From the NCBI GenBank assembly GCA_902595125.1, contig CACJOY010000001.1, positions 124,001-188,000 of the forward strand: a stretch of DNA of 64,000 nucleotides, read 5' to 3'. Position numbers and translations under genes: made by a program. The notes beneath the pieces were generated by a model. The model was not told the origin of the DNA and did no database searches. It saw only the letters and a list, made by a program, of their open reading frames with translations. Below are positions 44,718-47,520 of this stretch, piece after piece (positions within the stretch are counted from its first letter, which is position 1; every line of letters starts with the position of its first letter). Source of the DNA: an uncultured Pelagibacteraceae bacterium (GTDB lineage: Bacteria; Pseudomonadota; Alphaproteobacteria; Pelagibacterales; Pelagibacteraceae).

Positions 44718-45569
44718 ATGAAGGCTATTATTTATAACTTATTAGCATGGGTTATGCTTCCGATAATGGATGGATTTGCAAAATATTTAAGTGCCGATCT
44801 ACCAGTCTTACAAATTACTTGGGCAAGATATTTTTTTACTGTTGCCTTTACTTTGCCAATCATGTTTTTATTTTTTAGACAAAATTTAGTTTGGTCTGAT
44901 AAACCTAAGTTACAGTTTATTAGAGGTTTAATTTTACTATGTGCCAACATTTGTTTTTTTTATGCTATATCAGTCATATCTTTGGCTAAGGCATTAACTT
45001 TAGCATTTATTGCTCCATTAATTGTCACTGCTTTCTCACCAATATTTCTAAAAGAAAAAGTTGGTTTTAGAAGATGGGCGGCAGTTATCATTGGATTTGT
45101 TGGCTCTTTAGTAGTTATTAGACCAGGATTTGTAGAAATTAACTTAGCAAGTCTAGCTGCACTTGGAACAGGCGTCATGTATGGGTTTTATTTAATAATA
45201 ACTCGTAAATTAAGCACCTCAGACAATCCATTATTAACTTTATTATTAACTGGCGTAGTAGGGGCCATAATTATCTCTATAGTAATGCCAATTGTTTGGA
45301 TTAAACCAACATTAAGTCAGTGGTCAATGATGGCTGCTATAGGTATATTTGCCTGTATTGGCCATTTATTCCTAATATTGTCACTCAAATACGCTGATGC
45401 TTCTAAATTAGCTCCATTTAGCTACTTTGAGATCATTACAAACATCATTATAGGCTATTATTTCTTTAGTGATTTCCCTGATAATTGGACTTTCATAGGT
45501 TTATTTATTATTGTATTAAGTGGTATCTACATCTCAAGAAGAGAAAACTTAGTCAAAAAAGTTAAATAA
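44718..45569 (+). CDS. EamA/DMT-family permease
   Basis: A 283-aa drug/metabolite transporter with ten helices in two EamA repeats: WVMLPIMDGFAKYLS near residues 12-26, ISLAKALTLAFIAPLIVTA around 87-105 and, in the second half, IGHLFLILSLKYADASKLAPF near 214-234. Substrate unknown. Last core gene before the structured intergenic region and island. Confidence 0.86.
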   Translation: MKAIIYNLLAWVMLPIMDGFAKYLSADLPVLQITWARYFFTVAFTLPIMFLFFRQNLVWSDKPKLQFIRGLILLCANICFFYAISVISLAKALTLAFIAPLIVTAFSPIFLKEKVGFRRWAAVIIGFVGSLVVIRPGFVEINLASLAALGTGVMYGFYLIITRKLSTSDNPLLTLLLTGVVGAIIISIVMPIVWIKPTLSQWSMMAAIGIFACIGHLFLILSLKYADASKLAPFSYFEIITNIIIGYYFFSDFPDNWTFIGLFIIVLSGIYISRRENLVKKVK

Positions 45570-45873
45570 TAGGTATGATTTATTTACTAATGTCTTAAGT
45601 ATTACATTAAGTATAAATGTTAAAGCGTTGTATTTATTATATTTTTTATTAATTATATAAATAACTTAATTTTAGAATATTTTCAATTATTTGATACTAA
45701 ATTACCTTAATATGCTGTGAAAGTGTTTAGATTTTTGGCAAATTATAAAAAATATCAAATAATCTTATAAAATAGGGTCTTTTTTCCTATTGTGAATATT
45801 AAAATTCACTAAGATTAGGGCTGACTAAAAGCATTGATATAGTTGAATAGTAGAGCGATGCACTAATTGAATA

Positions 45874-45928
45874 TACCATTTAAACGCCCATAGAGGGGTC
45901 TATTTTAGGTATGGGCTCATATATGGTA
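45874..45928 (+). ncRNA. candidate structured RNA element (interrupted long hairpin)
   Basis: TACCAT (45874-45879) pairs with ATGGTA (45923-45928), and GCCCATA (45886-45892) pairs with TATGGGC (45910-45916), separated by a symmetric 6x6 internal loop. The 17-nt apical region GAGGGGTCTATTTTAGG holds a purine-rich GAGGGG and can also form a competing TAGA/TCTA mini-stem. Thirteen perfect pairs in this AT-rich context are unlikely by chance. Strand and transcription are not known. Confidence 0.4.
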
Positions 45929-45998
45929 CAACTGAAGGGTGAATTATGTTATTTAAGGAGAAATCAATTAAAAAGGTCAAAAAACGTTGTTTTTATTA

Positions 45999-46019
45999 GC
46001 TTTTTTAACTTAAAAAAGC
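45999..46019. terminator. bidirectional terminator-like hairpin
   Basis: GCTTTTTT (45999-46006) and AAAAAAGC (46012-46019) form an 8-bp stem with an AACTT loop between the rightward unit and the leftward alkyltransferase gene ending at 46032. The A/T arms supply T-runs on both strands. Confidence 0.5.
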
Positions 46020-46031
46020 CCAAAAATAAGG

Positions 46032-46301
46032 CTAAATCGCTACCTTTTCAGATCTAAGTAATTTGAGTTTTTGCTTAATTCCACCTTTACCAGAATAGCC
46101 TCCAAGAGCTCCATCAGATCTAATCACTCTATGGCAGGGTATTTTTGGTGCGTATGGGTTTTTAGCACAAGCATTAGCTACAGCGCGAGCCGATTTAGGG
46201 CTTTTTATGCCAATAGCTACCTGTTTATAGGTTTTTACCTTACCTTTTGGTATTTTTTTAAGGTACTTCCAGACTTTTAATTGAAATTTTGTTCCTTGCA
46301 C
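46032..46301 (-). CDS. minimal MGMT-type alkyltransferase domain protein
   Basis: An 89-aa protein consisting only of the C-terminal domain of O6-alkylguanine-DNA alkyltransferase: FQLKVWKYLKKIPKGKVKTY at the start, AVANACAKNP and the active-site PCHRVIRSDGALGGYSG near residues 53-69. The acceptor Cys is intact, unlike alkyltransferase-like proteins, which carry Trp there, so repair activity is possible despite the missing N-terminal domain. The start codon is GTG (46301). It follows the 58-aa membrane gene by six bases, suggesting an operon. Confidence 0.85.
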   Translation of the reverse strand: MQGTKFQLKVWKYLKKIPKGKVKTYKQVAIGIKSPKSARAVANACAKNPYAPKIPCHRVIRSDGALGGYSGKGGIKQKLKLLRSEKVAI

Positions 46302-46504: not shown

Positions 46505-46533
46505 TTGACATTAAAAAACATCTAATATATTAC
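46505..46533 (+). promoter_or_regulatory. putative promoter of the recombinase gene
   Basis: A perfect -35 TTGACA (46505-46510) and TATTAC (46528-46533) separated by exactly 17 bases, ending 33 bases before the recombinase ATG. The inverted repeat overlaps the end of the -10 and the expected transcription start, so a protein bound there would block initiation. Confidence 0.55.
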
Positions 46534-46559
46534 TAATGATAATTAATTGTTATCAATAG
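46533..46559. repeat. 10-7-10 imperfect inverted repeat (operator or recombination site)
   Basis: CTAATGATAA (46533-46542) and TTATCAATAG (46550-46559) are reverse complements at nine of ten positions, with a 7-base spacer TTAATTG. Arms of about 10-11 bp around a 6-8 bp spacer are the form of a tyrosine-recombinase core site. Location eight bases before the recombinase start also fits an autoregulatory operator. No second copy was noticed by eye. Confidence 0.5.
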
Positions 46560-46566
46560 TAATTAT

Positions 46567-47520
46567 ATGAATGAACTGACAACAGACCTAAAATCGCTTC
46601 ATGAGGCAACCCTTAATAACCTCAAAAGCTCTAAAGCAAATAACACTTTAAGAGCATATAAATCAGACTTTAAAGACTTTGGAGCTTTTTGTGCTAAGCA
46701 TGGCTTAAATTCTTTACCATCTGAGCCTAAAATCGTTTCTTTATACCTCACACATCTTTCTAAAAATTCAAAAATCAGCACTTTGAGAAGAAGATTAGTT
46801 TCAATTAGCATGGTTCACAAACTAAAAGGGCATTATTTAGACACAAAACATCCAATCATTGTTGAAAATTTAATGGGAATAAGGAGAGTAAAAGGAAGTA
46901 TTCAAAAAGGAAAAAAACCTATATTAATCAATCATTTAAAATCTATAATTAATGTAATAAATGAACAAAAAATTGAGGATATTAAGAAGTTTAGAGACAA
47001 ATCAATAATATTAATTGGCTTTGGAGGTGGATTTAGACGAACTGAGTTAATTTCAATCGATCATGAAGATTTAGAATTTGTACCAGAGGGGCTCAAAATC
47101 ACTATTAAAAGATCAAAAACTGATCAATTCGGTGAAGGGATGATTAAAGGTCTGCCCTACTTCACTAATGAAACTTATTGTCCAATTATCAATCTTAAAA
47201 AATGGCTAGAAATTTCTAAAATTAAATCTGGACCTATTTTTAGAAGATTTTCTAAAGGTTTATCTTTAACAGAGAAAAGATTAACCGACCAATCAGTAGT
47301 TTTATTAATGAAAGAATATTTAAATTTAGCAGGAATTGAGAATAAAAATTTTGCGGGTCATAGTTTAAGATCAGGTTTTGCAACTGTTGCAGCAGAGTCT
47401 GGTGCTGATGAACGTAGTATTATGGCAATGACTGGTCACAAAACAACGCAAATGGTCAGAAGATACATAAGAGAGGCAAATATTTTTAAAAATAATGCAC
47501 TCAATAAGATAAAGATATGA
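46567..47520 (+). CDS. tyrosine recombinase / integrase, intact
   Basis: A 317-aa site-specific recombinase. Residues ~10-100 form the SAM-like core-binding domain (NTLRAYKSDFKDFGAFC), and the rest is the catalytic domain with all residues expected: Arg157 in GFRRTEL, Lys184, His265-x-x-Arg268 in AGHSLRSG, His291 in TGHKT and nucleophile Tyr300 in VRRYIRE. There is no extra arm-type DNA-binding domain as in lambda integrase. It has its own promoter and its stop overlaps the following glycosyltransferase by ATGA. No excisionase or phage genes are nearby, so it is more likely an island or site-specific inversion enzyme than a prophage integrase. Confidence 0.93.
   Translation: MNELTTDLKSLHEATLNNLKSSKANNTLRAYKSDFKDFGAFCAKHGLNSLPSEPKIVSLYLTHLSKNSKISTLRRRLVSISMVHKLKGHYLDTKHPIIVENLMGIRRVKGSIQKGKKPILINHLKSIINVINEQKIEDIKKFRDKSIILIGFGGGFRRTELISIDHEDLEFVPEGLKITIKRSKTDQFGEGMIKGLPYFTNETYCPIINLKKWLEISKIKSGPIFRRFSKGLSLTEKRLTDQSVVLLMKEYLNLAGIENKNFAGHSLRSGFATVAAESGADERSIMAMTGHKTTQMVRRYIREANIFKNNALNKIKI

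Follow-up and report, generated by a model that had tools for sequence, protein, structure and literature searches.

A conserved non-coding element beside a putative single-recombinase dif/Xer module at the probable replication terminus of the Pelagibacteraceae

Single-recombinase dif systems have been described in streptococci and lactococci (XerS/difSL) and in epsilon-proteobacteria (XerH/difH) (PMC2731167). The same 2009 report listed Pelagibacter ubique as being without a dif/Xer system (PMC2731167), and our literature search found no paper describing one in this species. Structured RNAs are known from Candidatus Pelagibacter ubique (the rpsB, rpsL, ffh and SAM-V motifs; PMC2704228) and, like the element analysed here, they occupy conserved long intergenic regions of a streamlined SAR11 genome. 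The DNA under study is a stretch of 64,000 nucleotides from an uncultured Pelagibacteraceae bacterium (contig CACJOY010000001.1, positions 124,001 to 188,000), here named the window, which holds a conserved non-coding core and, next to it, the gene for a tyrosine recombinase. The best overall explanation, to which we give a probability of roughly 0.6, is that this is the terminus locus of the chromosome, comprising a dif/Xer module and a core that acts as a DNA terminus site.

The recombinase gene (46567..47520, plus strand) encodes a Xer-like protein of 317 aa, with matches to Pfam PF00589 and PF02899. Its catalytic set (R157, K184, H265, R268, H291 and Y300) is complete and did not vary in an alignment of seven sequences, each set of residues coming from a different genus; overall identity across genera is 54-94%. 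The locus resembles XerS/difSL and XerH/difH in having one Xer-type recombinase, a palindromic A+T-rich site beside its gene, a terminus position according to GC skew and FtsK, whose gamma domain (FtsK_gamma) was present in 12 of the 12 genomes tested. However, the SAR11 enzyme is only a distant Xer homologue, scoring far under the cut-offs of the NCBIfam Xer models: 71 bits against 330 for XerD, and 43.3 bits against 267 for XerS, of which it is not a member by this score; with XerH/difH, the likeness is one of description. Further differences are a 7-bp centre in place of a hexanucleotide, two symmetric arm types within the family, and the presence in most genera of an additional conserved element of ~95 bp upstream.

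The recombinase gene is single copy in nearly all the f1 genomes with a match; 2 of 23 genomes gave no match and one had a second weak match. Searches of the window's genus with the XerD model recovered this recombinase at 62-79 bits, together with rare weak extra matches, and neither XerC nor XerD was found there. In contrast, the sister family f2 has XerD-like (~320 bits) and XerC-like (~250 bits) proteins. The recombinase is the only Xer-type enzyme found in the family.

A dif-like palindrome, ATTACTAATGATAA-TTAATTG-TTATCAATAGTAAT (46529..46563), immediately precedes the recombinase gene, with three bases between its end and the ATG. In the loci examined, every genus that has the gene also has the palindrome next to it. 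The palindrome shares with XerC/XerD-dif the inner ATAA/TTAT of the arms and the position at the terminus. The 7-bp centre is TTAATTG or TTAATGG, and there are two versions of the arms, TTACTA-YGATAA/TTATC-ATAGTAA and TTCCGATAA/TTATCGGAA. These versions change symmetrically on both sides (54 sites A/A, 42 B/B and 2 unclassified, with no clear hybrid), as a protein dimer contacting both arms would impose. In the sampled genome stretches the complete dyad occurred only at the terminus beside the recombinase, and the two form a linked pair there, the only such pair found. The palindrome is likely to be the recombination site of the adjacent recombinase, although the dyad could alternatively be an operator of the gene that it immediately precedes. 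Taken as a recombination site and its enzyme, palindrome and recombinase very probably constitute a single-recombinase dif/Xer module. The recombinase, as the sole Xer enzyme, would bind both symmetric arms and cut around the 7-bp centre, and FtsK would activate it, so that chromosome dimers would be resolved as in XerS/difSL and XerH/difH.

Replication of the Pelagibacteraceae chromosome almost certainly terminates in this region. SAR11 genomes have a weak GC skew. The maximum of cumulative GC skew, computed at full resolution, lay at -2.5 kb from the element in G077, +0.04 kb in G063, +2.7 kb in G012, +3.8 kb in G086 and +2.5 kb in the window, so that in these five genomes the switch is less than 4 kb away; for comparison, a median of 7277 bp has been published for the separation of dif and skew maximum in proteobacteria (PMC2731167). 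Sparsely sampled GC skew agreed with a terminus in three of four genomes, G095 having no clear switch near the element. With parB as the origin marker, the distance to the element as a fraction of the genome was 0.499 in G063, 0.468 in G077, 0.499 in G086, 0.477 in G095, 0.474 in G103 and 0.472 in G012, all six being complete genomes. In four complete genomes of genera that lack the core (G065, G069, G082 and G100) the recombinase also lies opposite parB, at ~0.46-0.51, values that are approximate because lengths were rounded. Since gene order is common to these genomes, they are not independent observations. A/G-rich words (for example AGAGGG, AAGAGGG and AGTAGGG) point to the site on both replichores in the sampled genomes G063, G077, G095 and G103; they are candidate FtsK-guiding motifs, and possibly reflect only strand bias.

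The non-coding element lies upstream of this module, in a gap of 462 bp between the stops of two convergent genes, an EamA-type transporter gene on the plus strand (44718..45569) and an MGMT/ATL-like protein gene on the minus strand (46032..46301). A preliminary description of this DNA, made from the letters of the window, had reported a gap of about 460 bases here, correctly. The gap was found in synteny in related genomes along its whole length, and its alignment contains three conserved blocks around a freely varying middle (45656-45815). One block is the core, TAGAGC..TGCA..GAATAT..TTAAACG..CCATAGAGGGG..TATTTT..GTACAACTGAAGGGTGAAT (45851..45944, plus strand), defined from alignments of 17, 48 and 110 homologues. 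It spans ~95 bp, is nearly ungapped in the 110 homologues, and consists of invariant blocks at fixed spacing. A second block, TTTACTA..TAAAGTATTACTTTAA..TAAACTATTGTATTTATTATA (45575..45655), was delimited by alignment and direct reading of the sequence just after the EamA stop, and the third, AAAAAACGTTGTTTTTATTAG (45979..45999; also given as AAAAAACGTTGATTTT), is usually followed by a T run. Beside the MGMT-like stop, the minus-strand fold contains an A/T-rich hairpin, GCTTTTTTAACTTAAAAAAGC (45999..46019), which is possibly a bidirectional terminator; the consensus terminator scan chose another minus-strand hairpin, at 46033-46017.

The block at 45575-45655 is AT-rich and has an inner near-palindrome, TAAAGTATTACTTTA. 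By eye, a similar block is present in genus g8 (L074, around 950-1040), where the core is missing.

A sequence-only profile of the core found one copy per genome in 32 of 60 genomes, covering 8 of the 14 Pelagibacteraceae genera searched. The core pattern search of GTDB species genomes returned at least 119 stretches and, among the matches listed, essentially all were from Pelagibacteraceae; a match on contig L210, labelled Bacteroidetes, is probably due to chance. The palindrome is located 575-1409 bp downstream of the core, always on the same side, in 104 of 119 stretches, the other 15 having no palindrome on the fetched stretch, and the core always sits 0.6-1.4 kb upstream of the same recombinase. 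The core pattern was not found in viral contigs, and the core was for this reason discarded as a phage element. A protein-coding function was also discarded, given stops in all frames and the lack of a conserved frame and of 3-base periodicity. This lack equally opposes a pseudogene remnant, a possibility that the preliminary description had itself raised. A remnant or neutral spacer would be AT-rich and without an open frame, as the core is, but the invariant blocks persist deep across genera while the adjacent middle varies freely, and this cross-genus conservation makes such an origin hardly credible.

In every locus examined, the core occupies a convergent gap between a plus-strand gene (EamA or AEC transporter) and a minus-strand gene (MGMT, GPSWPDY-motif ORF or acetyltransferase-like ORF). 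Genera g5 and g7 have no EamA gene beside the element but an AEC transporter gene, and the MGMT-like gene is exchanged for a GPSWPDY-motif ORF in g5/g6 and for another minus-strand gene in other loci (the exchange was read in g5, g6 and g7 loci L042, L043, L047-L050, L053, L056 and L060). The differing genes around the convergent gap indicate that the core is independent of particular neighbours. If the core were a terminator of the convergent genes, or an element of their 3' UTRs, its position between two gene ends, where bidirectional terminators are expected, and the A/T hairpin beside the MGMT stop would fit. Nevertheless, the core persists at loci that lack both EamA and MGMT or have other genes in their place, and its length and sequence specificity far exceed those of an intrinsic terminator; we regard this explanation as improbable.

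Along the lineages, the far-side convergent neighbour varies (MGMT-like, GPSWPDY-motif ORF or acetyltransferase-like), and the element and the recombinase are constant.

The preliminary description had proposed that the gap holds a novel structured RNA, and its stems are present letter for letter in the window: GCATTG (45831-45836) with CGATGC (45856-45861), a 6-bp stem of TACCAT (45874-45879) with ATGGTA (45923-45928), and a 7-bp stem of GCCCATA (45886-45892) with TATGGGC (45910-45916) and a 6x6 internal loop, as well as the alternative TAGA (45891-45894) with TCTA (45899-45902) and the purine-rich apical GAGGGG (45893-45898). That description had recognised no RNA class in the region, and the Rfam covariance-model search likewise gave no match at the gathering score, and relaxed thresholds gave chance-level matches only, with a best sub-threshold E of ~1 or worse. 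A search for 6S RNA (RF00013) in the window's own genome was negative, while control genomes gave matches. The plus-strand fold has z = -1.20, with 24 of 200 shuffles folding as well, so the stems are not above chance on this strand; the minus-strand value of z = -2.59 is aided by the A/T hairpin at 45999-46019.

Comparison among homologues was likewise unfavourable to a structured RNA. RNAalifold predicted zero pairs both in 17 homologues and in 48 diverse representatives, and an analysis of 110 sequences, with an effective number of 46, found no helix-consistent mutual-information signal in the core. By excess pairing, the three helices rank 1016, 1321 and 2787 of 8231 possible 6-bp helices. 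In the 7-bp stem 53% of cells are paired in 48 homologues, with one C-G pair kept in 2 of the 48, and at one position of the 6-bp stem 20 of 47 homologues have G-G, the inner pairs of this stem being matched by 18% of shuffles. Overall, 58% of the cells of the proposed stems are paired against at most 44% for register-shifted versions, which favours a fold but is also expected when a structure is derived from one row, and the count of further pair types was 21, where shuffles predict 26. In covariation the stems score above most shuffles (7 of 500 reach their value), although related sequences can reach such a score without structure. Unlike the structured RNAs of P. ubique, the core has no covariation and is not upstream of a gene, and the EamA/MGMT gap is absent from the names in the table of those RNAs (PMC2704228). 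A structured RNA or riboswitch-like fold, which has in its favour the stems of the window's single sequence, is largely refuted already and very improbable; conversely, we hold with high confidence that the core is not a structured RNA. What stands of the retained RNA in the preliminary description is the retention, for the element is non-coding, selected and conserved across genera.

Another hairpin, which follows a DUF502-like gene in genera g10/g12, has compensatory stem changes (GCTCAAGAG/CTCTTGAGC versus TTTTCCAGGA/TCCTGGAAAA) around an invariant loop, AACAGAGATGGCTAAATC, and has no Rfam match (L076:850-920, L077:875-930 and L075:1235-1290). It is a better structured-RNA candidate than the gap in the window.

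The main rival to a DNA site is a small RNA with a gene of its own but no conserved secondary structure, which would act by means of single-stranded segments that are conserved (AGAGGGG and CAACTGAAGGG). Such an RNA would be consistent with the convergent gap at every locus examined, where no neighbour needs a leader, and with strong conservation over ~180 nt that includes the 3' block and usually a T run after it. On the other hand, the 10 promoter-like sites, where shuffles have 7.4, include no convincing promoter, there is no terminator-like hairpin on the plus strand and no covariation, and the loops have almost no length variation; we consider this RNA possible but rather doubtful. A candidate minus-strand promoter within the core (TTGTAC-N18-TAAAAT) was dropped, its -10 part, judged by eye, not being kept in g7 and the site being absent from the promoter scan list. 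The near-absence of indels in the core would be unusual in a hairpin-rich RNA and natural in a DNA site of fixed spacing. We infer an order of plausibility in which the DNA site comes first, followed by the unstructured small RNA, the terminator or UTR element and the structured RNA.

A double-stranded DNA site, rather than a transcript, is a reading to which we give about even odds. The core would then consist of blocks contacted by protein (GAATAT, TTAA, CCATA and GTACAAC), rigidly arranged at fixed spacing, and in most Pelagibacteraceae genera it may mark or organise the terminus, or serve as an accessory site. In genera g8, g10, g12 and g15 no core is detectable, though the recombinase, the palindrome and the terminus position are kept, which places the core outside the minimal recombination module. 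The preliminary description had also suggested a cis site for the nearby recombinase; the element is indeed tied to the neighbourhood of the recombinase and to the terminus, but the likely crossover site is the separate palindrome, and these four genera have recombinase and palindrome with no detectable core. The core had been considered as the crossover site itself (candidate 11-6-11 arms around ATAGAA), a proposal that was abandoned because the dyad lies beside the recombinase in all genera, even those without a core.

The palindrome pattern was also present in 30 viral contigs. In about 8 of them the match falls within coding sequence and is apparently due to chance; the others have the full site. 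No homologue of the SAR11 recombinase was found by tblastn on the site-bearing viral contigs. Judging by gene roles assigned by eye, the contigs that were read seem to belong to tailed phages, and in most cases the site is near a predicted large terminase gene. A search of 50,697 phage records with arm type A ranked the pelagiphages HTVC100P (E 8e-5) and HTVC035P highest and gave HTVC034P as a weak match. With arm type B, Salmonella phages ranked above HTVC106P, which came fifth and had a weak E-value, but its sequence contains the dyad. Most of these phages have both arm types, next to each other.

The phage sites are in non-coding DNA (contigs L288-L316 and pelagiphages L357, L358, L367 and L368). 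Several site-bearing contigs have ATACAACCTATNCTGCA in common, directly upstream of the site.

From these sequences we infer that the phages may use the host recombinase. CTX-phi-type phages exploit the host Xer enzymes, and the pelagiphages and viral contigs without the SAR11 recombinase likewise carry the host site. They differ from the CTX-phi type in that they are apparently tailed dsDNA phages with terminase genes, and in that most of the sites read are pairs, one of each arm type. According to the literature, no means of integrating into the chromosome is known for the most abundant pelagiphages (PMC11094077), a point on which the phage copies of the site bear.

A single-recombinase dif/Xer module at the SAR11 terminus would contradict the 2009 report for P. 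ubique, and the data suggest that dif/Xer was replaced, not lost, in the Pelagibacteraceae. The conserved core is a real element of the terminus. A more speculative proposal, which we would rate somewhat below even odds, is that the family swapped XerCD-dif for a divergent one-recombinase terminus module and a ~95-bp terminus element of an undescribed kind, and that pelagiphages which do not encode the enzyme themselves have taken up the host site, frequently with the two arm types next to each other, so that the host enzyme can recombine them with hosts of either type. The Xer module and its use by phages could be tested together with one purified protein and a 40-bp DNA. If true, the proposal would provide a route to chromosomal integration, or to the resolution of phage genome multimers, for phages thought to have no such route.
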